IMG/VR virus record: IMGVR_UViG_3300042946_000658
Location: 1-64,000 of that record
DNA: 64,000 nt
Strand: one strand, 5' to 3'
Source: a virus
Shown here one piece after another: positions 1 through 61,920 of this stretch. The stretch's first letter is position 1. Each line of letters begins with the position of its first letter. A model generated the notes under the pieces. The model saw only the letters and a program-made list of their open reading frames with translations. It did no database searches and was not told where the DNA came from. The position numbers and the translations under genes are program-made.

Positions 1-3000
1 CTAGTTCCACTTGAACCTGAAAGTCCTGTAGTTGTAACACACCAATAATAAACATCTGGTAATAAAGGTGCTCCAGTACCTGTTCCTCCAATATATGTAA
101 CACTAAAGGTAATTCCACCTCCACCAATTGTTGGGGTATTATTTAATTGATAAATGTAAGTTCCTGATGGTGTGGTAATTATTATTTCTGTACCAGCACC
201 AACATTACTCCAAAAACCGCTTCTATTTACACCATTATAATCATTAAATAAAGTCTTAATAGATGTTGCTAAAGTCCAATCGATATTGTTTACCACTTGA
301 GCCTGACCTTGAACTGTCGGTACACTTGTTATGTGGTCATAAGGGAAACAATTACCATCAATACCTGATGTTCCTGATGAGCCACTTGTTCCTGACGAAC
401 CTGATGTACCACTTGAACCTGAACTTCCGCTAGTTCCGCTTGAACCTGATGTTCCTGACGAACCGCTAGTACCCGAAGAACCTGATGTTCCGCTAGTTCC
501 TGATGAACCTGATGTTCCACTAGTACCTGATGAACCTGAAGTTCCGCTAGTACCCGAAGAACCTGATGTTCCTGATGAACCTGAAGTTCCGCTAGTTCCT
601 GATGAGCCACTTGTTCCTGACGAACCTGATGTTCCTGATGAACCTGAAGTTCCGCTAGTACCTGATGAACCTGAAGTTCCGCTAGTTCCTGATGAGCCAC
701 TTGTTCCTGACGAACCTGATGTACCACTTGAACCTGAACTTCCGCTAGTTCCGCTTGAACCTGATGTTCCTGACGAACCGCTAGTTCCTGATGAACCTGA
801 TGTTCCACTAGTACCTGATGAACCTGAAGTTCCGCTAGTACCCGAAGAACCTGATGTTCCCGATGAACCTGAAGTTCCGCTAGTTCCTGATGAGCCACTT
901 GTTCCTGACGAACCTGATGTTCCTGATGAACCTGAAGTTCCGCTAGTACCTGATGAACCTGAAGTTCCGCTTGTACCTGATGAACCACTTGTTCCTGAAG
1001 AACCTGACGAACCGCTAGTACCCGAAGAACCTGATGTTCCGCTAGTTCCTGATGAACCTGATGTTCCACTAGTACCTGATGAGCCACTTGTTCCTGACGA
1101 ACCTGATGTTCCTGATGAACCTGAAGTTCCGCTAGTACCCGAAGAACCTGATGTTCCCGATGAACCTGAAGTTCCGCTAGTTCCTGATGAGCCACTTGTT
1201 CCTGACGAACCTGATGTTCCTGAAGAACCTGAAGTTCCAGATGTTCCACTAGTTCCTGAAGAACCTGATGTTCCTGAAGTACCACTTGTTCCCGAAGAAC
1301 CTGAAGTACCACTAGTTCCTGATGAACCTGACGAACCTGAAGTTCCCGAAGAACCTGATGTTCCAGATGTTCCGCTAGTTCCTGAAGAACCTGATGTTCC
1401 TGAAGTACCACTTGTTCCCGAAGAACCTGAAGTACCACTAGTTCCCGAAGAACCTGATGTTCCAGATGTTCCGCTAGTTCCTGAAGAACCTGATGTTCCT
1501 GAAGAACCTGACGAACCTGATGTTCCCGAAGAACCTGATGTTCCAGATGTTCCGCTAGTTCCTGAAGAACCTGATGAACCTGAAGAACCTGAAGTTCCAT
1601 TTGTACCGCTTGTTCCTGAAGAACCTGAAGTACCACTAGTTCCTGATGAACCTGACGAACCTGATGTTCCCGAAGAACCTGATGTTCCAGATGTTCCGCT
1701 AGTTCCTGAAGAACCTGATGTTCCTGAAGAACCTGATGTTCCACTAGTTCCTGATGAACCACTTGAACCTGAAGTTCCGCTAGTACCTGATGAACCTGAT
1801 GTTCCGCTTGTTCCTGATGAACCTGAAGAACCTGAAGTTCCATTTGTACCGCTTGTTCCTGAAGAACCTGATGAACCTGATGTTCCACTAGTTCCTGAAG
1901 AACCACTTGAACCTGAAGTTCCGCTAGTACCTGATGAACCTGATGTTCCGCTTGTTCCTGATGAACCTGAAGAACCTGAAGTTCCATTTGTACCGCTTGT
2001 TCCTGAAGAACCTGAAGTTCCGCTAGTTCCTGAAGAACCTGATGTTCCTGAAGAACCTGATGTTCCTGAAGAACCTGACGAACCTGATGTTCCCGAAGAA
2101 CCTGATGTTCCAGAAGTTCCGCTAGTACCTGATGAACCTGATGTTCCGCTTGTTCCTGATGAACCTGAAGAACCTGATGTTCCACTAGTTCCTGAAGAAC
2201 CACTTGAACCTGAAGTTCCGCTAGTACCTGATGAACCTGATGTTCCGCTAGTTCCTGAAGAACCTGATGAACCTGAAGAACCTGAAGTTCCATTTGTACC
2301 GCTTGTTCCTGAAGAACCTGATGAACCTGATGTTCCACTAGTTCCTGAAGAACCACTTGAACCTGAAGTTCCGCTAGTACCTGATGAACCTGATGTTCCG
2401 CTTGTTCCTGATGAACCTGAAGAACCTGAAGTTCCATTTGTACCGCTTGTTCCTGAAGAACCTGAAGTTCCGCTTGTTCCTGAAGAACCTGAAGTTCCGC
2501 TAGTACCTGATGAACCTGATGTTCCGCTCGTTCCTGATGAACCTGAGCTACCTGATGTTCCGCTCGTTCCTGATGAACCTGATGTTCCGCTCGTTCCTGA
2601 TGAACCTGAAGTTCCATTTGTACCGCTTGTTCCTGAAGAACCTGATGTTCCGCTCGTTCCTGATGAACCTGAGCTACCTGATGTTCCGCTCGTTCCTGAT
2701 GAACCTGATGTTCCGCTTGTTCCTGATGAACCTGAAGAACCTGAAGTTCCGCTAGTTCCTGATGAACCTGATGAACCACTTGAACCTGAAGTTCCATTTG
2801 TACCACTTGTTCCTGATGAACCTGAGCTACCTGATGTACCAGAAGTTCCTGAAGAACCTGAAGTTCCGCTCGTTCCTGATGAACCTGAAGAACCTGAAGT
2901 TCCACTAGTTCCTGACGAACCTGAAGTTCCGCTAGTACCTGATGAACCTGATGTACCACTTGTTCCTGACGAACCTGATGTTCCTGACGAACCACTTAAA

Positions 3001-5675
3001 CCTGAAGTTCCGCTAGTACCTGACGAACCTGATGTTCCTGACGAACCACTTGAACCTGAAGTTCCGCTAGTACCTGACGAACCTGAAGTTCCATTTGTAC
3101 CACTTGTTCCTGATGAACCTGAGCTACCTGATGTTCCTGAAGAGCCAGATGTTCCATTTGTACCGCTTGTTCCTGATGAACCTGATGTTCCATTTGTACC
3201 GCTTGTTCCTGATGAACCTGAAGTTCCACTTGAACCTGATGTTCCTGAAGTACCATCAGCACCGCTTACACCTGATGTTCCGCTCGTTCCTGAAGAGCCA
3301 GATGTACCATTTGTACCGCTTGTTCCCGATGAACCTGATGTTCCGCTCGTTCCTGAAGAACCTGATGTACCATTTGTACCGCTTGTTCCTGAAGAACCTG
3401 ATGTTCCGCTAGTTCCTGATGAACCTGAAGTTCCGCTCGTTCCTGATGAACCACTTGAACCTGAAGTTCCATTTGTACCGCTTGTTCCTGAAGAACCTGA
3501 TGTTCCGCTCGTTCCTGATGAACCTGAAGTTCCGCTTGTTCCTGATGAACCTGAAGAACCTGAAGTTCCATTTGTACCGCTTGTTCCCGATGAACCTGAT
3601 GTTCCGCTCGTTCCTGATGAACCACTTGAACCTGAAGTTCCATTTGTACCGCTTGTTCCCGATGAACCTGATGTTCCGCTCGTTCCTGAAGAACCTGATG
3701 TACCATTTGTACCACTTGTTCCTGATGAACCTGAAGAACCTGAAGTTCCACTAGTTCCTGACGAACCTGAAGTTCCGCTAGTTCCTGATGAACCACTTGA
3801 ACCTGAAGTTCCATTTGTACCACTTGTTCCTGATGAACCTGAGCTACCTGATGTACCAGAAGTTCCTGAAGAACCTGAAGTTCCATTTGTACCACTTGTT
3901 CCTGATGAACCTGAGCTACCTGATGTACCAGAAGTTCCCGATGAACCTGAAGTTCCGCTTGTTCCTGATGAACCTGATGTTCCGCTTGTTCCTGATGAAC
4001 CTGATGTTCCGCTTGTTCCTGATGAACCTGAAGTTCCGCTCGTTCCTGATGAACCACTTGAACCTGAAGTTCCGCTAGTACCTGAAGAACCACTTGAACC
4101 TGAAGTTCCATTTGTACCACTTGTTCCTGAAGAACCACTTGAACCTGAAGTTCCATTTGTACCGCTTGTTCCCGATGAACCTGAAGTTCCGCTCGTTCCT
4201 GATGAACCACTTGAACCTGAAGTTCCATTTGTACCGCTTGTTCCTGAAGAACCGCTTGAACCTGAAGTTCCATTTGTACCGCTTGTTCCTGAAGAACCGC
4301 TTGTTCCTGAAGAACCGCCTGTTCCTGATGAACCTGAAGTTCCACTTGTTCCTGATGAACCTGAAGTTCCACTTGTTCCTGAAGAACCTGAGGAACCGCC
4401 TGTTCCTGACGAACCACTAGTTCCTGACGAACCACTAGTTCCTGAAGTTCCGTCAGCACCACTTACACCTGATGTTCCTGATGTTCCTGAAGAACCTGAT
4501 GTACCATTTGTACCGCTCGTTCCTGATGAACCACTTGAACCTGATGTACCATTTGTGCCGCTTGTTCCTGATGAACCTGATGTACCATTTGTACCGCTTG
4601 TTCCTGAAGAACCCGATGTACCATTTGTGCCGCTTGTTCCTGATGAACCTGAAGTTCCGCTCGTTCCTGAAGAACCTGATGTTCCGCTAGTTCCTGATGA
4701 ACCACTTGAACCTGAAGTACCAGATGAACCTGATGTTCCACTAGTACCATTGATACCACTAATACCAGATGTTCCTGAAGTCCCACTTGTTCCTGAAGAA
4801 CCAGATGAACCTGAAGTTCCCCCTGTTATTGTAACTGTTATTGCACCGTCACCATCATTAGTAACAGAAGCACCATTGAATGTTATACCAGTGACATTAC
4901 TTACGGTTGTAACTCCGTCTCCAACTGTTAAAGGACTACCTCCTCCTGAGGTAAATCCTGTAATTTGAATGTCGTCACCAAGTGAATTTGTTAATGTTAA
5001 AGTTTGTGTACCGGAATTATAAGTTCCACCTGTAATTGGCGCAGTAAATCCTGAAATTGTAATAGTACCACCTGTATTATTGTATAAATCTAAATCTGAA
5101 GTTCCTGAGAAATAAGTACCACCTGTAATTTGTACATCACTACCCCAAAATATTTGCCATCTGGCATTATTCTTAGTTACCCCACCAACACCTTCAATTG
5201 TTGAGCCTGTCCAAGCATCAAGAAGGGCCGCTCCTTGTGGCGTATCATCATAAACCTCATAACCACTACCTAAATCAATGATAGAACCAGCAGTTTCAGC
5301 ATCATCCCACATTGACGTAAATCCTGTCATCGTGTATTGGTACACAGTGTCTGTCTCTTGGACATACACCTGCATACCTAATCTTCTACGACCTGAAGAA
5401 ATACCATCGTTATTTAATGTTAGCGTGTTTGGTAATGAATAAGGTACGTTATAAGTTAAGTTAATAGGAATTGAGTTTCCTGAGTAGTAAACAACACCCC
5501 CATTAATTAAAATGTCATTTGGAATTATGAAATCTAGGTCAGATAAGGAGTAAACTTCCATATATCCACCAATTCCAAGTACACTAAAATTTGTACCGGT
5601 ATTATTTTCTCTAATGACTGAATCAGGAGTCTGAAGAATGGTTGTTGATACGGGGTTTTTATATTGAAAACTCAT
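1..5675 (-). CDS. Giant collagen-like tail fibre protein (3' end outside window)
   Basis: From ATG 5675 the reading frame is open for 1891 codons to the left edge, so the C-terminus lies outside. The first ~285 residues have ordinary composition with beta-rich repeats (for example ITGGTY and ISGFT). They are followed by about 1490 residues of Gly-X-Y triplets (GTS, GSS, some GTN, GLS, GVS, GAD) from 4820 to about 354, then a ~100-residue non-repetitive domain containing the stretch DGNCFPYDHI, then the start of another triplet stretch (LSGSSGTS). Frame continuity is supported because the codon phase set by the ATG matches the phase at both ends of the triplet tract. Phage Gly-X-Y proteins form trimeric fibre shafts, so a long tail or baseplate fibre is the natural role. 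Glutamine-rich ORFs in the neighbouring frame are shadows. A TATTTAT motif lies 17 bases before the start. Confidence 0.85.
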   Translation of the reverse strand, partial: MSFQYKNPVSTTILQTPDSVIRENNTGTNFSVLGIGGYMEVYSLSDLDFIIPNDILINGGVVYYSGNSIPINLTYNVPYSLPNTLTLNNDGISSGRRRLGMQVYVQETDTVYQYTMTGFTSMWDDAETAGSIIDLGSGYEVYDDTPQGAALLDAWTGSTIEGVGGVTKNNARWQIFWGSDVQITGGTYFSGTSDLDLYNNTGGTITISGFTAPITGGTYNSGTQTLTLTNSLGDDIQITGFTSGGGSPLTVGDGVTTVSNVTGITFNGASVTNDGDGAITVTITGGTSGSSGSSGTSGTSGTSGISGINGTSGTSGSSGTSGSSGSSGTSGTSGSSGTSGTSGSSGTSGTNGTSGSSGTSGTNGTSGSSGTSGTNGTSGSSGSSGTSGTNGTSGSSGTSGTSGVSGADGTSGTSGSSGTSGSSGTGGSSGSSGTSGTSGSSGTSGTSGSSGTGGSSGTSGSSGTSGTNGTSGSSGSSGTSGTNGTSGSSGSSGTSGTSGSSGTSGTNGTSGSSGSSGTSGTNGTSGSSGSSGTSGTSGSSGSSGTSGTSGSSGTSGTSGSSGTSGTSGSSGTSGTSGSSGTSGTSGSSGSSGTSGTNGTSGSSGTSGTSGSSGSSGTSGTNGTSGSSGSSGTSGTSGSSGTSGTSGSSGSSGTSGTNGTSGSSGTSGTSGSSGTSGTNGTSGSSGSSGTSGTSGSSGTSGTNGTSGSSGSSGTSGTSGSSGTSGTSGSSGTSGTNGTSGSSGSSGTSGTSGSSGTSGTSGSSGTSGTNGTSGSSGTSGTSGSSGTSGTNGTSGSSGTSGTSGVSGADGTSGTSGSSGTSGSSGTSGTNGTSGSSGTSGTNGTSGSSGTSGSSGSSGTSGTNGTSGSSGTSGTSGSSGSSGTSGSSGTSGTSGLSGSSGTSGSSGTSGTSGSSGTSGTSGSSGTSGTSGSSGSSGTSGTSGSSGTSGTSGSSGSSGTSGTNGTSGSSGSSGSSGTSGTSGSSGSSGTSGTSGSSGTSGTSGSSGSSGTSGTSGSSGTSGTNGTSGSSGTSGTSGSSGTSGTSGSSGSSGTSGTSGSSGTSGTSGSSGTSGTSGSSGTSGTNGTSGSSGSSGTSGTSGSSGTSGTSGSSGSSGTSGTSGSSGSSGTSGTNGTSGSSGSSGSSGTSGTSGSSGTSGTSGSSGSSGTSGTSGSSGSSGTSGTSGSSGTSGTSGTSGSSGTSGSSGSSGTSGSSGTSGSSGTSGTSGSSGTSGTNGTSGSSGSSGTSGTSGSSGTSGTSGSSGSSGTSGTSGSSGSSGTSGTNGTSGSSGSSGTSGTSGSSGTSGTSGSSGSSGTSGTSGSSGTSGSSGTSGTSGTSGSSGTSGSSGSSGTSGTSGSSGTSGTNGTSGSSGSSGSSGTSGTSGTSGSSGTSGSSGSSGTSGSSGTSGTSGTSGSSGTSGTSGSSGTSGTSGTSGSSGTSGTSGTSGSSGTSGSSGSSGTSGTSGSSGTSGTSGTSGSSGTSGTSGTSGSSGTSGSSGTSGSSGTSGTSGSSGTSGSSGTSGTSGSSGTSGSSGTSGSSGTSGTSGSSGTSGTSGSSGTSGSSGSSGTSGSSGTSGTSGSSGTSGTSGSSGTSGSSGTSGSSGTSGTSGSSGTSGSSGTSGTSGSSGTSGTSGSSGTSGSSGTSGSSGTSGSSGSSGTSGSSGTSGSSGTSGTSGSSGTSGTSGSSGTSGSSGTSGSSGTSGTSGSSGTSGSSGTSGTSGSSGTSGTSGSSGTSGTSGSSGTSGSSGTSGSSGTSGSSGSSGTSGSSGTSGSSGTSGIDGNCFPYDHITSVPTVQGQAQVVNNIDWTLATSIKTLFNDYNGVNRSGFWSNVGAGTEIIITTPSGTYIYQLNNTPTIGGGGITFSVTYIGGTGTGAPLLPDVYYWCVTTTGLSGSSGT
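354..4820 (-). repeat. Collagen-like Gly-X-Y triplet tract
   Basis: The tract is about 4.5 kb of degenerate 9-base units encoding Gly-Thr-Ser or Gly-Ser-Ser triplets, roughly 490 in a row. Higher-order blocks recur, such as segments containing SGTNGTSG and SGVSGADGTSG. It is low-complexity coding DNA, not a CRISPR array: there are no unique spacers. Confidence 0.9.
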
Positions 5676-5711: not shown

Positions 5712-7925
5712 TTATACTAGCGTGCCTCCTCGGAAATACCAAGCGTTTCCGTTGTTAGTTATGGTCAATCCACCCGCAGGTTTTGTAACATATACTCTGT
5801 AAGTACCCGCAGGTATATTTGCTGAGCCTGTGTAGTTTATTATTAAACTATTATAAATTGAACTCACAACCGTATCAGTTGCCGGTGGGTTAGCATTACC
5901 ATTCAAGATTGTAGAATACTTTTGTCCGTTAGTCGCTCCCGTTGATACAAACCAAACATAGTACGCCACTTCAGTAGGATTTGGTACTGTCGCAGCAGGA
6001 ACTTGGATTGTTTGGAATCTATAAGCAACTATCGGGTTACCAAAAGCGTCATTACCACCACTTGTTGTTGAAATTGGCGCTGTGAATATTGCTGGTTCAG
6101 ATACACCCCATCCACTGTAGGCAATATAGGTGTTCATTTGTGTATTAAATGTCGCCTGTATTGTTGATGGTGAAGTAATGTTAAATCCTCTGAACGCACT
6201 TCCTTGTGCCAGCATATAGTTGTTTAACGCAGTTCTGATTGTTGCGTCGTTTCTATCGATGAACAAATACGCCTGTATTGGTTGTGCCGATGGAGTTGGT
6301 GTTGGAGTAGTTGTAGTGGTTGGCGTTGGTGACGCAGTATTAGTAGGTGTTTGAGTTGGAGTATTTGTTGCGGTTTGTGTTGGTGTTGGAGTCGATGTCT
6401 GTGTTGGAGTTGGTGTCTTTGTTTGTGTTGGTGTTTGTGTTGGTGTTGAAGTATTAGTTGCGGTATTTGTAGGCGTAGGAGTATTAGTCGCAGTTTGCGA
6501 TGGTGTTGGTGTTTGTGTCGGTGTTGGAGTCTGAGTTCTCGTTGGTGTTTGTGTTGGGGTCTGAGTTCTCGTTGGTGTTTGTGTTGGTGTTTGTGTTGGA
6601 CTAGCAGTAATAGACGGTGTTGGAGTGTTAGTCGATGTTGCGGTTTGTGTTGGGGTTGGCGTATTAGTTGCTGTTTGTGTTGGAGTATTAGTCGCAGTAT
6701 TAGTTGGAGTATTAGTTGCCGTATTAGTTGGCGTCTGAGTTGGAGTATTAGTGGCAGTATTGGTTGGTGTTTGAGTATTAGTCGCAGTATTAGTTGGCGT
6801 TTGCGTTGGCGTTTGAGTTGCAGTATTAGTTGGTGTAGGTGTTGGAGTCTGAGTTGCGGTATTAGTTGGAGTCTGAGTTGGACTAGCAGTAATAGACGGT
6901 GTTGGTGTCGGTGTGATATCAGATGTAACTGAAGGTGTAGGTGTATTTGTTTGTGTCGCAGTTTGTGTTGGTGTAACCGTATTAGTCGCAGTAATTGTAG
7001 GTGTCTGCGTAGCAGTTTGTGTTGGTGTATTAGTGGCAGTTTGAGTTGGTGTCGCGGTTTGAGTTGGTGTGTTAGTTGCAGTTTGTGTTGGTGTGTTAGT
7101 TGCAGTTTGTGTTGGTGTGTTAGTTGCAGTTTGTGTTGGTGTGTTAGTTGCAGTATTAGTTGGTGTTTGGGTAACCGTTGGTGTTTGAGTAGGCGTAGAA
7201 GTATTGGTCGGTGTTTGAGTAACCGTTGGAGTTTGTGTTGGAGTTGAAGTTTGTGTCGGAGTTTGTGTTCTTGTCGCTGTTTGTGTCGGAGTTTGGGTTC
7301 TTGTTGGAGTCTGTGTAGGTGTTGCAGTCCTTGTGTTAGTTGGGGTCTGTGTTGGTGTTGAAGTATTTGTTGCGGTGTTAGTTGGCGTGTGAGTGTTAGT
7401 TGGAGTCTGTGTTGGTGTTGAAGTTGATGTATTTGTTGGCGTAGGTGTTTTAGTTTGGGTTGCAGTATTAGTTGGTGTGTGAGTTTGGGTATTTGTAGGT
7501 GTATTTGTTGGAGTATGCGAAGGGGTATTTGTTACCGTATTAGTAGGTGTGATAGTCGGTGTTACAGATGGTGTCGCGGTAGATGTCGGGCTAACAGTTT
7601 GTGTTGGCGTACTTGTGGCACCTGGAGTCGTAGAAGTAGGTGTTGGTGTTGGCGTAGTTGTTGGCGTATAAGTTGGGGTAGGTGTTGGTGTTGGGGTGAA
7701 ATCAAAGCACACCACATAACCATCAATCATTTGTTGTCTGGTTATATCAGTGGCATATGCCGGCTCAGAAGTTGAATTTATGAATATATCAAATGGACCA
7801 ATTGCGTTAGAACTAGCTGGTATTCTAACAATATAACAAGATGGCCCGGTGACTGTAATCTGTTTTTGAACCTCAGTATTACACCCCGTTGCCTTATTGA
7901 CACAAATTATAGTTTCTAACGACAT
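5712..7925 (-). CDS. Virion protein with long Thr/Pro-rich stalk
   Basis: 737 residues in three parts. Residues 1-76 form a short N-terminal domain with cysteines ([14 protein letters not shown]). Residues ~77-545 are almost purely Thr, Pro, Gln, Asn, Ala and Ser in PTQTPTNT-like units. The last ~190 residues form a compact, probably beta-rich domain ([10 protein letters not shown] near its start, ending [10 protein letters not shown]). The stalk-plus-head layout suggests an extended fibre or adhesin protruding from the tail. No specific family is recognised. It lies directly upstream of the collagen fibre gene, and a TATTTAT motif sits 10 bases before its ATG. Similar Thr/Pro linkers occur in the 822-aa neighbour and at the C-terminus of the 2194-aa protein. 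Plus-strand Cys/Trp-rich ORFs over the stalk are shadows. Confidence 0.75.
6290..7697 (-). repeat. Thr/Pro-rich low-complexity coding repeat
   Basis: Degenerate units encoding PTPT, TQTPT and NTATNTPTQ run for about 470 codons within the 737-aa virion protein. At the DNA level they appear as recurring gttggtgttt and gtattagttg words. Such tracts are prone to length change by recombination. Confidence 0.85.
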
Positions 7926-56176: not shown

Positions 56177-56590
56177 TTAGTTATTAACAATAAAAATTTT
56201 ATTTTTACGATTTACCATATCAACCGCATTGGCGTGAAATACTGGTTCTTCAGTATCTTTGTAAACAAATGAGTCATAAACATCGGGCTTATATGTTACA
56301 ACAATACCGTTTGGTTCTTTAGGGATATTTTCACAAGGGTATTGACAAAAATCTTCCAAGTAACCAATAACAAATGCGTGAACATTTTTTGATTTTTCAC
56401 GACGAACTCGGTCTCTACCACCCTTTCTAACTCTGAACTCCACATCACTTAATTTTACAAAGTCGGCGTGCATAATAACCTTACCATCAAACGTTACTGA
56501 AAAAGTATGTTTGTGTAGGTTATAATACACCATAACTCTTTTACCTAAAAAGGCAGATTCAAATTGTGATTCAGTAATTAGTATTTTCAT
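56177..56590 (-). CDS. Unknown protein with MKIxITExQ leader
   Basis: 137 residues. It begins MKILITESQFESAFLGKRV and has a basic segment (RVRKGGRDRVRREKSKN) and a short Cys pair (CQYPCENIP). The opening resembles the leader of the next gene upstream (MKIIITERQYNM). The compact alpha/beta composition gives no family assignment. It lies one base from the connector candidate, within the neck/tail operon. The ITE-S/Q motif could be a protease-processed tag, by analogy with T4 capsid-targeting sequences, but nothing proves it. Confidence 0.55.
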   Translation of the reverse strand: MKILITESQFESAFLGKRVMVYYNLHKHTFSVTFDGKVIMHADFVKLSDVEFRVRKGGRDRVRREKSKNVHAFVIGYLEDFCQYPCENIPKEPNGIVVTYKPDVYDSFVYKDTEEPVFHANAVDMVNRKNKIFIVNN

Positions 56591-56599
56591 ATATTATAA

Positions 56600-56896
56600 T
56601 TATTTTGAACAATAGTTATCGTAGGTGTGAATAAAGAAATCCCTAAATTGTGATTGATACCCATTGTCAATAAGATATTGATAGATATACTCATATAAAT
56701 CATCATTACCAATTTGTTCACATAATTGTTCGACAATATTTGCCATTGATGAATCAACATATTCTCTAATTTCATCTTTACTCCAATAATCACAAACAGA
56801 ATCACGGTCCAAGTCACTTATGTGTTCATCGACATACCCCAATCTTCGTTGTAGTCTTAACATATTGTATTGTCTCTCTGTGATGATGATTTTCAT
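56600..56896 (-). CDS. Unknown acidic helical protein with MKIxITExQ leader
   Basis: 98 residues: MKIIITERQYNMLRLQRRL, then an acidic helical body (DEHISDLDRDSVCDYWSKDE) ending DNYCSK. It shares its first nine residues, with conservative changes, with the 137-aa neighbour, while the remainder differs. The ATG overlaps the stop of the upstream gene (TAATG). Function unknown. Confidence 0.55.
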   Translation of the reverse strand: MKIIITERQYNMLRLQRRLGYVDEHISDLDRDSVCDYWSKDEIREYVDSSMANIVEQLCEQIGNDDLYEYIYQYLIDNGYQSQFRDFFIHTYDNYCSK

Positions 56897-57422: not shown

Positions 57423-57459
57423 CAATTATATTGATTATTATTATGTAAAATGCTTTTTG

Positions 57460-59214
57460 ATGGCAGAACCAAGAACAATAGAATCGAAGGCAATCAAGAT
57501 TTTAGAGGAATACCAAGGGGCCAATAACCACATTATTAACTTAAAAATTAAGTTAGAAAAAAACCCTAAATTTTTCCCTACAAGAAGCCAATGTGATTAC
57601 ATCTTTGAGAATAAAGATGTTGTACCTAAAGTTGCTCGTAAATGGGTGGTACTTGATTCATACTTTTCACAAAAACTTGCTGATGATAAATTCTTAATGA
57701 CCGTCCCCGAAAAAATGTGGGTGGAAAAGATTTTATGTGAAAGAGATAAAGCGTTTCATATTTGGGGAAAGTTTTTTGAATCCGATGAATTACAAGAATA
57801 TTGGGTTCCGAAGGCATCTATTATCAAAGACAATAAGGTTAATATTGGTGAAATAGATTATTCAAAATATTCTCATCGTCCTCCATTGGACCACCAAAAA
57901 ATTGCAATCGAACAATTATTAAGAAATAAGAAATACATTTTGGCTGATGATATGGGGTTAGGTAAAACTACCTCAACAATTATCGCATCATTAGAGACAG
58001 GTGCTAAAAAGATTTTAATTATCTGTCCAGCATCTTTAAAGATTAACTGGCAACGAGAATATCAACTTTACAGTAACAAAACAAGTTATGTTTGTGAAGG
58101 TAAAAACTACTCAAGTGAACACGATATTTTGATAATGAATTATGATATTATCAAAAATTTCCACGATACAAAAAACAAAGAAAAGTCTCAAATTTTTAAA
58201 GACAAGTTTGATTTAGTAATCATTGATGAAGCACACTACATTCAAAATGTCCAAGCTCAAAGAACAAAATTAATTAACGATATTGTTAAAGATGTTGATA
58301 GACTTTGGTTATTAACAGGTACCCCGATGACATCAAGACCAATTAATTATTTTAATTTGTTATCGTTGGTTGACTCTCCTGTTGCTAAGAATTGGATGGC
58401 GTATGTTGTCAGATATTGTGCAGGATATCAGTTCAAAGTAGGACCAAGAAAAGTTTGGAATGTAATGGGAGCGTCTAACTTGGAGGAATTAAGAGACCGA
58501 ACTACAACAACGGTTCTTCGTCGTTTAAAAGAAGACGTTTTAGATTTACCTGATAAAATCATAACACCAGTTTATTTACGACTCAAGTCAAAATTGTACG
58601 AGGAGGTAATGGGTGATTATTATAATTGGTATGAAAAAAATCCTGACGAGAGTAAAAACTTATCTCTTCAGTTTACAAAGTTAACTCAAGTTAGACAGGT
58701 TATCGCAGATGAAAAAGTTAACCACACAATTGAACTTGCAGAGAACATAATAGAACAAGGAAAAAAAGTTATCATTTTTTGTAATTTTACAAACTCTTTA
58801 GAAAAAATATGTGAACACTTTGGTAAATCTGCGGTGCGTCTTGATGGGTCAATGTCAAAAACGCAAAGACAAGATTCGGTTGACAGATTCCAAGAAGATG
58901 ACAAAGTAAAAGTGTTTGTCGGTAATATTAAAGCCGCAGGTGTGGGTATCACACTAACCGCAGCTGAAGCTGTTATTATGAACGATTTGTCATTCTTACC
59001 GTCTGACCACAGTCAATCTGAGGACCGAGCTTACCGATACGGACAGAAAAATAATGTTTTGGTTTACTACCCAATTTTTGAAAATACAATCGAAGGAATC
59101 ATCTATGACATACTCAATAACAAGAAAAAAATTATTGGAACCGTGATGGGTGATACTCAAGATGAAACAAATGTTGTTGAGGAAATTTTGAAAGAGATTA
59201 GTAGAATGAGATAA
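57460..59214 (+). CDS. SNF2-family DNA helicase/translocase
   Basis: 584 residues from ATG 57460 (MAEPRTIESKAIKIL); an in-frame TTG one codon earlier is possible. SF2/SNF2 motifs are complete: PPLDHQKIAIEQLL (Q-like), LADDMGLGKTTSTI (I), LIICPASLKINWQRE (Ia), FDLVIIDEAHYIQN (II, DEAH), WLLTGTPMT (III), VIIFCNF (IV), GITLTAAEAVIMND (V), HSQSEDRAYRYGQ (VI). It resembles SMARCAL1/annealing-helicase-type enzymes and may fill the recombination/fork-remodelling role of T4 UvsW. It starts the plus-strand unit and is two bases from the next frame. Confidence 0.92.
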   Translation: MAEPRTIESKAIKILEEYQGANNHIINLKIKLEKNPKFFPTRSQCDYIFENKDVVPKVARKWVVLDSYFSQKLADDKFLMTVPEKMWVEKILCERDKAFHIWGKFFESDELQEYWVPKASIIKDNKVNIGEIDYSKYSHRPPLDHQKIAIEQLLRNKKYILADDMGLGKTTSTIIASLETGAKKILIICPASLKINWQREYQLYSNKTSYVCEGKNYSSEHDILIMNYDIIKNFHDTKNKEKSQIFKDKFDLVIIDEAHYIQNVQAQRTKLINDIVKDVDRLWLLTGTPMTSRPINYFNLLSLVDSPVAKNWMAYVVRYCAGYQFKVGPRKVWNVMGASNLEELRDRTTTTVLRRLKEDVLDLPDKIITPVYLRLKSKLYEEVMGDYYNWYEKNPDESKNLSLQFTKLTQVRQVIADEKVNHTIELAENIIEQGKKVIIFCNFTNSLEKICEHFGKSAVRLDGSMSKTQRQDSVDRFQEDDKVKVFVGNIKAAGVGITLTAAEAVIMNDLSFLPSDHSQSEDRAYRYGQKNNVLVYYPIFENTIEGIIYDILNNKKKIIGTVMGDTQDETNVVEEILKEISRMR

Positions 59215-59230: not shown

Positions 59231-59237
59231 TATTTAT
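59231..59237 (+). promoter_or_regulatory. TATTTAT motif upstream of SOD-fusion gene
   Basis: The plus-strand motif TTATTTATAAGGA lies 18 bases before ATG 59256. It is on the sense strand of a plus gene, showing that the motif orientation follows gene direction. Confidence 0.45.
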
Positions 59238-59255
59238 AAGGAAATATACCTTAAT

Positions 59256-60785
59256 ATGCAACACTTACAAGAATCAGTAGAAAGAGTTGAAAAACAAATT
59301 TTACAAGAACAAAAAAAAGAAGAGGTAAAAGTTTTAATTAACGAAATGAAGAAGATAGGTATTGAAGACCTACCTTATGCCTACACAGCCCTGAAAAGAT
59401 TTATTGACCCCGAAACAATGAATGTTCATTACAACAAACATTACAAGGGTTATGTAAATAAGTTAAATGACTTACTCTCTAAAAGAAAATCAAAAAACAA
59501 CGATTTAGAAAAAATCATAAGAAACATTTCAAAGTATCCAAAGGCAGTTAGAGATAATGCAGGTGGGGCGTTTAACCACGCATTGTTTTGGAATATGTTA
59601 TCACCAAAACCGATGAAAGTTGGTAATGATATTAAACAAAGAATCATAAAAGATTTTGGTAGTTTTGATAGATTCAAAAAAGAATTTGAAAAAATTGCAA
59701 CAGAAAGATTTGGTTCAGGTTGGGTTTGGTTGATTATTACTAAAAAAAATACTCTAAAGGTGATGTCCACTCCAAACCAAGACAATCCACTAATGAATGT
59801 TATTGAGGATGGGGGATTCCCATTGTTAGGTTTAGACTTATGGGAACACGCTTACTATCTAAAATACAAAAACAAAAGAGACGAATACATTAAAAACTTT
59901 TGGACCGCAGTTAATTGGGATTTTGTCGAGGGGTTATACAAGATGAGGTCTGAGACTCGTTTAACTGAAATAAAAGAAGTTAAAGGTTTAATCTTGGAAG
60001 GTAAATCTGAAAGTTGTTCTAAAGAAGAAAAAGATTTTTACCGAGTTTTATTTAGTGTTAATGAAAATGTTGTTGAGGTTTACAAGAACACAATTAATAA
60101 AATAATTAAAAGAAAATTTGCTGACAAGTGGTTCCCTTATTCTAAAGGTGAATTAGCGGGTGTATACAATTTAGAAAAAGAAGGTCGTTCAGATATAAAT
60201 TATTTAAACACAAACTACACCGTAATTTGTCCATTAATAAAAGATATTAATAAAGTTATTACTCGTTCAGGTCAAGAACCAATATCATTTGCGGTACCAC
60301 CACAAAATCAAGTTGCAGAAATGAAAAGACTCTGTAACTATATTGAAAAATATCAGGACAGAATTTTTGACCCAAAAAGTGCAACATTCCAAAATATGAT
60401 GTCGTTATTACTTCGTACAAATGAACAAGGGTCTAAACGAGAAGAATTTGCAAAAAAAGTAATTACCGAAAAAATACCAAATTCAAAAGTTGTTACAACT
60501 GCAGGGTCTGGTTCAGTCAAAGATGCCGTCCAAAAAATTGACTTAGAAGTTTTCATAAATGGTCAAAAAAATACTTGTCAGGTAAAGGGTTTTATGGAAT
60601 TAAAACCTGCCGATGGTAAAATAGTTATTATTGGTAGTGGTGAAGTAAGATACTATAATGTTGATTGGATGGTGTTTGTTAACATAAAAATGAGAAGAGT
60701 TGTTATCTTCAGAAACACACCAAATATTGTTATGGGGGAGTATGTTTTTGATGAGTCAGATTTGATTTACAACTTAAACCTTTAA
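59256..60785 (+). CDS. Mn/Fe superoxide dismutase fused to putative nuclease domain
   Basis: 509 residues from ATG 59256; an in-frame GTG at 59217 is less likely because a TATTTAT motif lies between. Residues 1-20 form a helical leader (MQHLQESVERVEKQILQEQK). Residues ~35-230 are a Mn/Fe-SOD with all four metal ligands: His58 (NVHYNKHYKGYV), His108 (FNHALFW), Asp194 and His198 (LDLWEHAYYL). Gln175 in STPNQDNPL is the Mn-type position of the outer-sphere Gln. Residues ~250-509 are another domain: KIDLEVFINGQKNTCQVKG fits a PD-(D/E)xK-like core (Asp...Gln-x-Lys), preceded by GSKREEFAKKVI. The SOD detoxifies superoxide; the nuclease assignment is tentative. Confidence 0.85.
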   Translation: MQHLQESVERVEKQILQEQKKEEVKVLINEMKKIGIEDLPYAYTALKRFIDPETMNVHYNKHYKGYVNKLNDLLSKRKSKNNDLEKIIRNISKYPKAVRDNAGGAFNHALFWNMLSPKPMKVGNDIKQRIIKDFGSFDRFKKEFEKIATERFGSGWVWLIITKKNTLKVMSTPNQDNPLMNVIEDGGFPLLGLDLWEHAYYLKYKNKRDEYIKNFWTAVNWDFVEGLYKMRSETRLTEIKEVKGLILEGKSESCSKEEKDFYRVLFSVNENVVEVYKNTINKIIKRKFADKWFPYSKGELAGVYNLEKEGRSDINYLNTNYTVICPLIKDINKVITRSGQEPISFAVPPQNQVAEMKRLCNYIEKYQDRIFDPKSATFQNMMSLLLRTNEQGSKREEFAKKVITEKIPNSKVVTTAGSGSVKDAVQKIDLEVFINGQKNTCQVKGFMELKPADGKIVIIGSGEVRYYNVDWMVFVNIKMRRVVIFRNTPNIVMGEYVFDESDLIYNLNL

Positions 60786-60801: not shown

Positions 60802-61920
60802 ATGGCAGCAATTCCAGAACCAGAAAGAAGTAAAATTTATACGAGAATTAAACATCAGTTAGGTGCACCACTTAGAAGTGTTGAACTTGAAGATGAAATG
60901 ATGGACTCGTTAATGGAACTATCAATCCAAGACTATGAACAATATGTTTTAGATTGGTTAATAGAATCTCAATGGGTTAACTTGGTTAACCTTAATATGA
61001 GTGAAAAATCAGTTGCAAACGCACTAATTACAAGAACATTTAATCTTGAGGACCAATACACCTATGCATATTCAAAGATTGTTGGTCTACAAACAGTTGG
61101 TCCTTGGGTTCTTAAAAAAGATTACTTTATTCTTAGTGCCAACACACAAACTTATGAGATACCAGCAGGTCGTGAGGTAAACGAATTACTATGGTTTTCA
61201 AACCAACCTTGGCAAAACGTGGCTCTTTGGGGTACCGCTGATTTTGGTTTTGCAGGCGTAGGTCTTGGTGGTAACCAAGCGGGTTATGCACAATATGGTA
61301 ACGCAGGTTCGTACTTTATGATGAGTGGTTTTGACTACCTAATTAGATATCAAGAAGCAAATATTCTTAACCGAATCTTAGGTGGTTCATTAACCTATAG
61401 AATTACAGGATTACCGGACGGTAAAAAAATGGTTCATTTGTATAATACACCTGGTGGTAATTTTAACTGGAGTAACTATTCTGAATACGCAGGTAAAGCC
61501 GTATGGTATTGGTATTATGATGTTGATGGTGATAGTAGAAAAGATTGTTTAAGAGACAATCCTGACGTTATCAAATTACCTTCAGACGTTCCAATCGAAG
61601 ACTTAAGTTGGGAAGATTTAAATGCTCCCGCACAACAATGGGTTAGAAGATGGTTTACCGCTTACTGTAAAGAAACTTTAGCGAGAGTTAGAGGAAAATA
61701 CTCAGGTAATTTAAAAACCCCTGATAGTGAACTTGTAATGGATTATCAGTCACTTTTAACTGAAGCTAAAGACGAAAAGACTAAATTAGACGAAGAATTA
61801 AAAGCAAGACTTGAAAGATTACGTCCTGAAAAACAAATGGAAAAAGAAGCTCTAACGGCAGAAAACCTGAATAAACAAATGAAATTTAGGGCAATGCCTC
61901 GTCAAATTTATGTTATCTAA
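60802..61920 (+). CDS. Neck protein candidate (T4 gp13-like)
   Basis: 372 residues (T4 gp13: 309). The sequence runs MAAIPEPERSKIYTRIKHQL, a central Gly/Ala/Tyr-rich loop (GFAGVGLGGNQAGYAQYGN), and a helical C-terminal part with WVRRWFTAYCKETLARVRGKYSG, then PDSELVMDYQSLL and EELKARLERLRPEK. This helix block resembles the gp13-type neck proteins of T4-like marine phages. It would connect the portal to the tail. It is followed three bases later by a small virion-type gene. Confidence 0.6.
   Translation: MAAIPEPERSKIYTRIKHQLGAPLRSVELEDEMMDSLMELSIQDYEQYVLDWLIESQWVNLVNLNMSEKSVANALITRTFNLEDQYTYAYSKIVGLQTVGPWVLKKDYFILSANTQTYEIPAGREVNELLWFSNQPWQNVALWGTADFGFAGVGLGGNQAGYAQYGNAGSYFMMSGFDYLIRYQEANILNRILGGSLTYRITGLPDGKKMVHLYNTPGGNFNWSNYSEYAGKAVWYWYYDVDGDSRKDCLRDNPDVIKLPSDVPIEDLSWEDLNAPAQQWVRRWFTAYCKETLARVRGKYSGNLKTPDSELVMDYQSLLTEAKDEKTKLDEELKARLERLRPEKQMEKEALTAENLNKQMKFRAMPRQIYVI

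Follow-up and report, generated by a model that had tools for sequence, protein, structure and literature searches.

A phage gene joining a Mn-type superoxide dismutase to a PD-(D/E)xK nuclease fold, a candidate precursor of internal head proteins

Results

The window analysed here is a stretch of 64,000 nucleotides, positions 1 to 64,000 of the 141,693-base virus record IMGVR_UViG_3300042946_000658 from IMG/VR. On its plus strand, 59256..60785 is occupied by an ORF that runs from an ATG at 59256 to a stop codon ending at 60785 and encodes 509 aa, in which a Mn-type superoxide dismutase (SOD; residues ~36-226) is joined to a PD-(D/E)xK nuclease fold (core ~391-509). The upstream neighbour on the same strand (57457..59214) matches PHROG 62, DNA helicase, with E 2.1e-110, and we read it as SNF2/UvsW-like; the downstream neighbour (60802..61920, plus strand) is a neck or head-tail adaptor gene (PHROG 211, head-tail adaptor, E 4.1e-11). 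The fusion gene sits between the helicase and neck genes in the loci that we read by eye, and locus L198 has one extra ORF between these two genes, beside its nuclease gene. Compared with other loci, the adjacent helicase ORF is extended by ~360-380 aa at L154:943-3897, L197:342-3188 and L199:1019-3907; in L154 it carries an intein-like insertion within the ATP-binding loop that ends in ...VTHN.

A first-pass annotation of this DNA had read the gene as a superoxide dismutase fused to a putative nuclease within one ORF and had suggested a search for the same fusion in other phages. That reading holds, and the fusion recurs: the best 80 of 596 confirmed stretches (598 candidates) from a first scan of viral contigs carry it. 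The viral-contig scans were each represented by their best 80 stretches, of 596, of 345, of 444 and of 242 confirmed. With identical ORFs merged before counting, there are at least 121 distinct fused ORFs of 484-563 aa from stop to stop (the query has 509 aa from its ATG). Locus L038 ends at its contig edge, and the fusion proteins of L002-L006 do not differ from the query (100% identity). The annotation had also considered that a sequencing artefact might have joined two genes. An assembly or sequencing artefact would suit contig L279, where the two halves lie in different frames, but the 121 distinct fused ORFs come from contigs of many metagenome datasets, and since the first scan alone gave at least 80 fused loci we reject a joining artefact, to which we assign a negligible probability. 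In L279:3900-5600 the SOD and nuclease frames differ at the linker; either the gene is naturally split there or this single contig has an indel.

The SOD domain (residues 36-226; 59361..59933, plus strand) was recognised by Pfam, by phmmer against the PDB and by Foldseek. The Pfam families Sod_Fe_N (residues 36-116, E 4.2e-23) and Sod_Fe_C (residues 125-225, E 6.5e-40) both score above cut-off, and the nearest NCBIfam model, SOD [Mn], gives E 8.2e-59 and lies below its own cut-off (198.9 of 363 bits). The nearest solved structure by phmmer is the Sphingobacterium Mn-SOD 6gsc (E 3.6e-59), to which the domain aligns with a Foldseek E of 3e-16 and 45% identity over 194 columns. H58, H108, D194 and H198, which we take to be the metal ligands (three His, one Asp), are each present in 121 of the 121 distinct fused ORFs, and so is Gln175 in the STPNQD stretch, which marks the Mn type; the annotation's claim that the four ligands and the Mn-type Gln are intact is thus confirmed. 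The domain resembles the bacterial Mn-SOD of Sphingobacterium sp. T2 (6gsc) in fold, in its four ligands and in the Mn-type Gln; unlike that enzyme, it is embedded between candidate protease sites of a precursor.

The nuclease part comprises residues 249-509 (60000..60782, plus strand), which an AlphaFold2 model divides into a helical region (254-390) and a PD-(D/E)xK core (391-509; 60426..60782, plus strand). The model of residues 237-509, made with a 27-row alignment, has a pLDDT of 88.6 and a pTM of 0.80, and its last ~120 residues match PD-(D/E)xK nucleases. The best Foldseek match of the core is I-Ssp6803I (2ost; E 1.4e-3, probability 1.00), followed by archaeal Hjc; ranks 1-16 are all nucleases by name, none of them with E <=0.001. 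By VIA, the core aligns with Hjc (2wcw; Z 9.0, rmsd 3.3, 102 aligned), SPARDA (9qcc; Z 8.6, rmsd 4.1, 110 aligned) and I-Ssp6803I (2ost; Z 8.3, rmsd 3.2, 104 aligned). The top seven VIA matches have Z of 8.0-9.0, middling by the tool's own note, and rows 1-30 are, as we take them from their names, nucleases of the PD-(D/E)xK fold. Structure prediction of this half, which the annotation had proposed, has therefore produced a fold match (best Foldseek E 1.4e-3, Z up to 9.0), and the model suggests a PD-(D/E)xK fold with a match of middling strength. E396, D423, D429, Q442 and K444 are each found in 121 of 121 distinct fused ORFs, so that the Asp...Gln-x-Lys core noticed earlier proves to be an invariant D429-x12-Q442-x-K444. 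With E396 they fit the superfamily's pattern of a helix Glu and an acidic residue followed, on the next strand, by (D/E/Q)-x-K.

The phage nuclease has a core fold in common with SPARDA DREN, I-Ssp6803I and archaeal Hjc, and a D-x(n)-Q-x-K arrangement in common with the first two, I-Ssp6803I likewise having a D...QxK site; it shows no significant sequence similarity to any of the three. It differs from known PD-(D/E)xK nucleases in its extra helical region (254-390), in being viral and in being candidate head cargo. For SPARDA DREN, the portion of the report available to us describes D...QxK as a Mg-binding active site with catalytic D41, Q60 and K62 (PMC12205087). Searches by sequence gave little for this half and assigned it to no curated family. 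No Pfam family scored above cut-off with the query and then with 27 nuclease parts; with E values up to 1 admitted, 31 families matched the 27 parts, the lowest E being 0.0056, and among them DUF6602 matched 7/27 (best E 0.012) and EcoO109I 1/27 (E 0.015) below threshold. PADLOC returned five families for the same 27 parts, the best being GajB (1/27, E 2.5e-4), and a PDB sequence search with the nuclease profiles gave one chance match each (E 0.47 and 0.73). A single-pattern scan for bacterial homologues of the nuclease in genome contigs gave 65 pattern matches, none of which was confirmed.

The rank of I-Ssp6803I as best Foldseek match would suit a selfish endonuclease of the homing type, with either it or the SOD gene having captured the other. 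Holliday-junction resolvases and SPARDA nucleases score within 1 Z unit of it, however, and in those relatives that were read by eye the gene is at a single locus, which makes such an origin very unlikely. We are highly confident that the fusion protein contains both domains with intact sites.

Compared in 1500 sampled pairs, the segments have median identities of 0.72 (SOD), 0.45 (helical region), 0.40 (nuclease core), 0.43 (linker) and 0.30 (leader). The median dN/dS values are 0.043 (SOD, 37 pairs), 0.084 (helical region, 39 pairs) and 0.065 (nuclease core, 37 pairs), drawn from 40 of 192 eligible pairs, the others of these 40 having been dropped for a dS >=1.5 or zero or for a failed estimate; these low values indicate that both halves are under purifying selection. 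At the level of sequence, the SOD metal site (121/121) together with the SOD dN/dS of 0.043 would argue for catalysis and against a bystander role.

Residues 1-30 (59256..59345, plus strand) form a helical N-terminal leader (model helix 2-32) that ends in (I/L)-x-E, a candidate capsid-targeting propeptide. Three conserved motifs on the plus strand are candidate prohead-protease sites: I28-N-E30/M31 at the leader's end (59337..59345), L236-T-E238/I239 (59961..59969) and, at the SOD-nuclease junction, I246-L-E248/G249 (59991..59999). According to the accessible part of one source, the T4 prohead protease cuts after L/I-X-E (PMC9026906). Such a motif is short and common, occurring in the first 35 residues of 50 of the phage's 126 predicted ORFs; its presence by itself was therefore rejected as evidence, and only its conservation was counted.

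That conservation is pronounced. In the nearer fused set, residue 30 is Glu in 86/86 with I/L at P3 in 85/86; with divergent members included, the figures are 112/121 and 101/121, the column not being Glu in 9/121 and P3 being V, K, Q or E in 20/121. Several of the divergent members whose E30 motif is off have another I-x-E or V-x-E nearby. E238 is Glu in 117/121 with I/L at P3 in 110/121, E248 is Glu in 121/121 with I/L at P3 in 120/121, and for both sites P3 is I/L in 86/86 of the nearer set. E248 is thus invariant though linker identity is only 0.43. Eleven columns hold Glu in at least 95% of the 86 fused ORFs, and those with I/L at P3 in at least 87% are E30, E238, E248 and E197, the last lying in the DLWEH metal motif of the SOD (I/L at P3 in 75/86). 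In the full-length model, which is weaker (pLDDT 78.8, pTM 0.50), pLDDT falls below 50 at residues 1-5, 19-42 and 236-249 only, and E30, E238 and E248 lie in the two low-confidence stretches that flank the SOD (19-42 and 236-249).

Three other ORFs (56177-56590 and 56600-56896 in the window, 134221-135456 in the record) start with MK(I/Y)(L/I)ITE followed by S or R. The first belongs to the Phage_L5_gp82 family (E 3.1e-29). This common seven-residue start, of which close variants occur in relatives, resembles a very short T4-like targeting peptide.

PHROG matches identify a phage with a T4-type head and a gp21-like prohead protease: the capsid protein is PHROG 138 (E 4.7e-67), the gp21-like head maturation protease PHROG 207 (E 1.8e-43), the portal PHROG 213 and the terminase PHROG 2. 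The propeptide of T4 gp23 has 65 residues in the part of the literature source consulted (PMC5694885). In a capsid alignment, LINE60/A of this phage aligns with FLTE65/A of T4 gp23, the cleavage position of the latter, and stands opposite IVSE59/A of Flavobacterium phage immuto and LISE60/A of Microcystis phage Mel-JY01; the E and A of the cut site are identical in all four proteins, and immuto has V at P3. LINE/A is present in 6/6 capsid proteins from carrier records (our phage's own and five others, two of them identical to it). The capsid LINE60/A and the fusion LINE30/M are the same motif. The earlier suggestion that the leader resembles a capsid-targeting sequence is thus borne out only indirectly: its end, L-I-N-E30, is a T4-type protease motif like that which ends the phage's own capsid propeptide.

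By capsid protein, the nearest isolates are Flavobacterium phage immuto (42%) and Microcystis phage Mel-JY01 (43%). Given these capsid relatives and a nearest solved SOD from Sphingobacterium, a Bacteroidota host is plausible. At the start of the window, two minus-strand ORFs may encode tail fibres: one of 1891 aa (1-5675), open to the record start, overlaps a region dense in repeats, and the other (5712-7925) encodes 737 aa with abundant (P/N)TQT repeats.

Upstream of the fusion gene, at 59231..59238 on the plus strand, lies TATTTATA, a candidate late promoter detected by 8-mer enrichment upstream of ORFs. It is the most enriched 8-mer in that position and has 21 copies in the record (for example at 59231, 60791, 109173 and 113560), 19 of which lie within 60 nt upstream of a same-strand ORF start. 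Read on the opposite strand, it is the core of the T4 late promoter, TATAAATA. It precedes the fusion, neck and portal genes, several ORFs read as tail genes, and the ORF between the protease and capsid protein, which is a scaffold by position alone and has no PHROG match. In this phage the exact motif does not precede the ORFs for capsid protein, protease and terminase, nor those that we read as ribonucleotide reductase, replicative helicase and RecA-like, nor the adjoining helicase gene. The sequence TATTTAT occurs within 60 nt upstream of 86/86 fused ORFs and 17/24 SOD-less ORFs (see below), against 101 of 5500 random 60-mers from the same loci, counts in which the rows are related and not independent. 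The fusion gene has this promoter-like motif in common with the portal and neck genes, and we infer that TATTTATA may be a late promoter and the fusion gene expressed late. (I/L)-x-E is found in the first 35 residues of 13 of the 19 ORFs behind TATTTATA versus 37 of the 107 others (Fisher p 0.0095). A 208-aa ORF behind TATTTATA (record 124766-125392; L085:766-1392) starts with MRDRIKQILQEQIDLKKIGIE, matches no Pfam family at E 0.01, and has QILQEQ and KKIGIE in common with the fusion leader.

Three viral-contig scans (best 80 of each) yielded 110 distinct nuclease-bearing ORFs, 86 fused and 24 without SOD. In the SOD-less loci read by eye the nuclease gene again lies between the helicase and neck genes, and these relatives have the leader and site directly before the nuclease; (I/L)-x-E stands just before it in 22/24, while L193 and L203 are without the strict motif. 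In L206 and L207, the leader is followed by a stub, INEMKKIEIEKL, corresponding to the upstream flank of the SOD, and then by KSIISE/GKSE; read from its sequence, the stub is an in-frame loss of the SOD between two sites. In L197, the SOD is a separate 241-aa gene with a leader and I-T-E/M, and the nuclease is a separate gene after it with L-T-E/K. A search for a SOD elsewhere in 16 hand-picked SOD-less records found none in 15 (six of them >150 kb, and any of which may be a fragment); the sixteenth is that of L197.

A tree of 66 of the 110 distinct nuclease parts and one outgroup, whose branch of 5.66 leaves the root unsure, places a SOD-less clade (17 alone, 1 split) among fused lineages with support of 100/100. 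The lineage with the stub lies elsewhere, with fused neighbours, and three changes suffice. The simplest story is an old fusion followed by at least two SOD losses; since the root is unsure, the direction of gain or loss rests on the stub of L206 and L207. By their sequences, the relatives would fit a cassette in which the SOD is present or absent as a unit.

These variants bear on two other accounts of the protein. One is that it is a bifunctional enzyme which remains inside the host during infection, an ordinary auxiliary SOD fused to a nuclease for co-expression and never packaged or cut. SOD genes do occur in other phages, such as PA5oct-type Pseudomonas phages and Vibrio phage 2.275.O; moreover, packaging is our own deduction, and (I/L)-x-E is short and common. 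Such an enzyme would have no evident need of an E248 kept in 121/121, with I/L at P3 in 120/121, in a variable, low-confidence linker, nor of a leader and site that are retained without the SOD and, with I-T-E, on the separate SOD gene of L197, nor would it call for a promoter-like motif in common with the portal and neck genes. We consider it unlikely. The other account is a structural or head-completion protein whose nuclease trims packaged DNA ends and whose SOD fold is a bystander or glue. The position between the helicase and neck genes in the loci read by eye and the late-type motif upstream would suit it, but the SOD metal site is kept in 121/121 at a dN/dS of 0.043, and 24 distinct ORFs of relatives have no SOD at all, with none elsewhere in 15 of the 16 records searched. 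Two weak tests against the T4 head completion protein gp4 also found nothing: hhalign gave a probability of 0.1%, and a search of the phage's own record, run without a positive control, gave no match. This account is less probable still.

We also examined the 'phages' collection, in which 31 records match and none spans 80% of the query. The SOD part alone is matched in 29/31, several being bacterial records or of unclear origin, and the nuclease part alone in 2/31, which are two copies of one 735-kb metagenomic phage; this phage was also the sole match in a tblastn search of the collection with two nuclease queries. Its homologue, L168, has the same catalytic residues (E396, D429, Q442-x-K444) and is without leader or site. 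As a lone query L168 found no match in viral contigs; when heading an alignment, it retrieved a single near relative, L252, together with many divergent fused ORFs.

Discussion

We propose, with a probability of about two in three, that the fusion is a late-expressed precursor of internal head proteins, which would be cut by the prohead protease so that SOD and nuclease are packaged and probably ejected. The helical leader would carry the precursor into the prohead core, where the gp21-like protease would cut at E30 and at E238/E248, each time behind an (I/L)-x-E motif. Cleavage would free a Mn-superoxide dismutase (~residues 31-238) and a PD-(D/E)xK nuclease (~249-509) in the maturing capsid, and both would stay with the DNA in the head and probably be ejected into the next host. 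There the SOD would clear superoxide as infection begins, and the nuclease might attack host or competing DNA or process that of the phage itself. All of this, from packaging, cleavage and ejection to the two activities and their targets, is what we infer, and not with equal assurance: cutting by the prohead protease in the head is probable from the sequence pattern, whereas ejection with an anti-oxidant role is a tentative suggestion. A nuclease that is active would need restraint while it shares the head with the phage genome, which counts against the proposal; restraint could possibly come from tethering until late cutting, from lack of metal or from DNA modification. The first-pass annotation had imagined a packaged SOD-nuclease that could shield entering phage DNA or counteract an oxidative or abortive defence of the host. 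Packaging still appears to be the likeliest fate, but the protein is probably a precursor that is cut and not a working fused enzyme, relatives having the nuclease alone or the two as separate genes. We somewhat favour a more general idea, a swappable cargo slot in T4-type heads, in which enzymes lying between prohead-protease sites are packed as a polyprotein and freed in the capsid, here SOD and nuclease.

The proposed precursor resembles the T4 internal head proteins (Alt, IPI-III), as the consulted portions of two sources describe them, in its T4-type head, gp21-like protease and leader ending in (I/L)-x-E, and in its candidate late-expression signal and putative host-directed cargo (PMC9026906, PMC5694885). 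Unlike Alt and IPI-III, the cargo here is SOD and nuclease in one chain with further candidate sites between; the leader has ~30 residues versus 10-20 in the T4 proteins. SOD and nuclease would thus be new cargo for T4-type internal head proteins. There is likewise a resemblance to phage polyvalent proteins (PMC5512222), which have several enzyme domains per chain and are likely packaged and injected; unlike those, the candidate cutting here is at a prohead-protease motif. The word superoxide is absent from the main text of the polyvalent-protein paper (PMC5512222).

SOD genes of phages are usually regarded as metabolic and as active in the course of infection. If the proposal is true, this would be the first case that we know of in which a phage head delivers an antioxidant enzyme, so that oxidative stress is disarmed ahead of all phage gene expression, and superoxide would already endanger the phage when its DNA enters. 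In a Campylobacter study, a T4-like phage reportedly plaques less well on sodB, katA or ahpC mutant hosts, which makes a need for packaged SOD plausible; with a plating efficiency of 61.2% the sodB effect is small, and a phage variant that fared better on the katA and ahpC mutants had no significant gain on sodB (PMC8540345). The polyprotein layout predicts new N-termini at residues 31 and 249, the relatives with and without SOD are a natural comparison set, and the precursor would, if the proposal is true, offer a natural blueprint for head cargo made up of several enzymes.

The annotation had known of no such architecture. In a literature search at the level of abstracts, with few subscription papers covered, we found no report of a SOD-nuclease fusion or of a packaged SOD. 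A UniProt entry in BFVD, A0A6J5L953 (uncultured Caudovirales phage, 501 aa), matches the nuclease model with a TM of 0.87 (query-normalised) and E 2e-24, and judged by name, length and structural match it is almost certainly the same fusion with its second half unlabelled. The sequence is therefore probably not new to databases, and the annotation's statement is right only in part; the entry is named 'superoxide dismutase' only, with the second half and processing sites unremarked. A second entry, A0A8D9CCA0 (BFVD, 1113 aa, uncultured marine phage), matches the nuclease model with a TM of 0.83 and E 1e-16 and is possibly another multi-cargo architecture.
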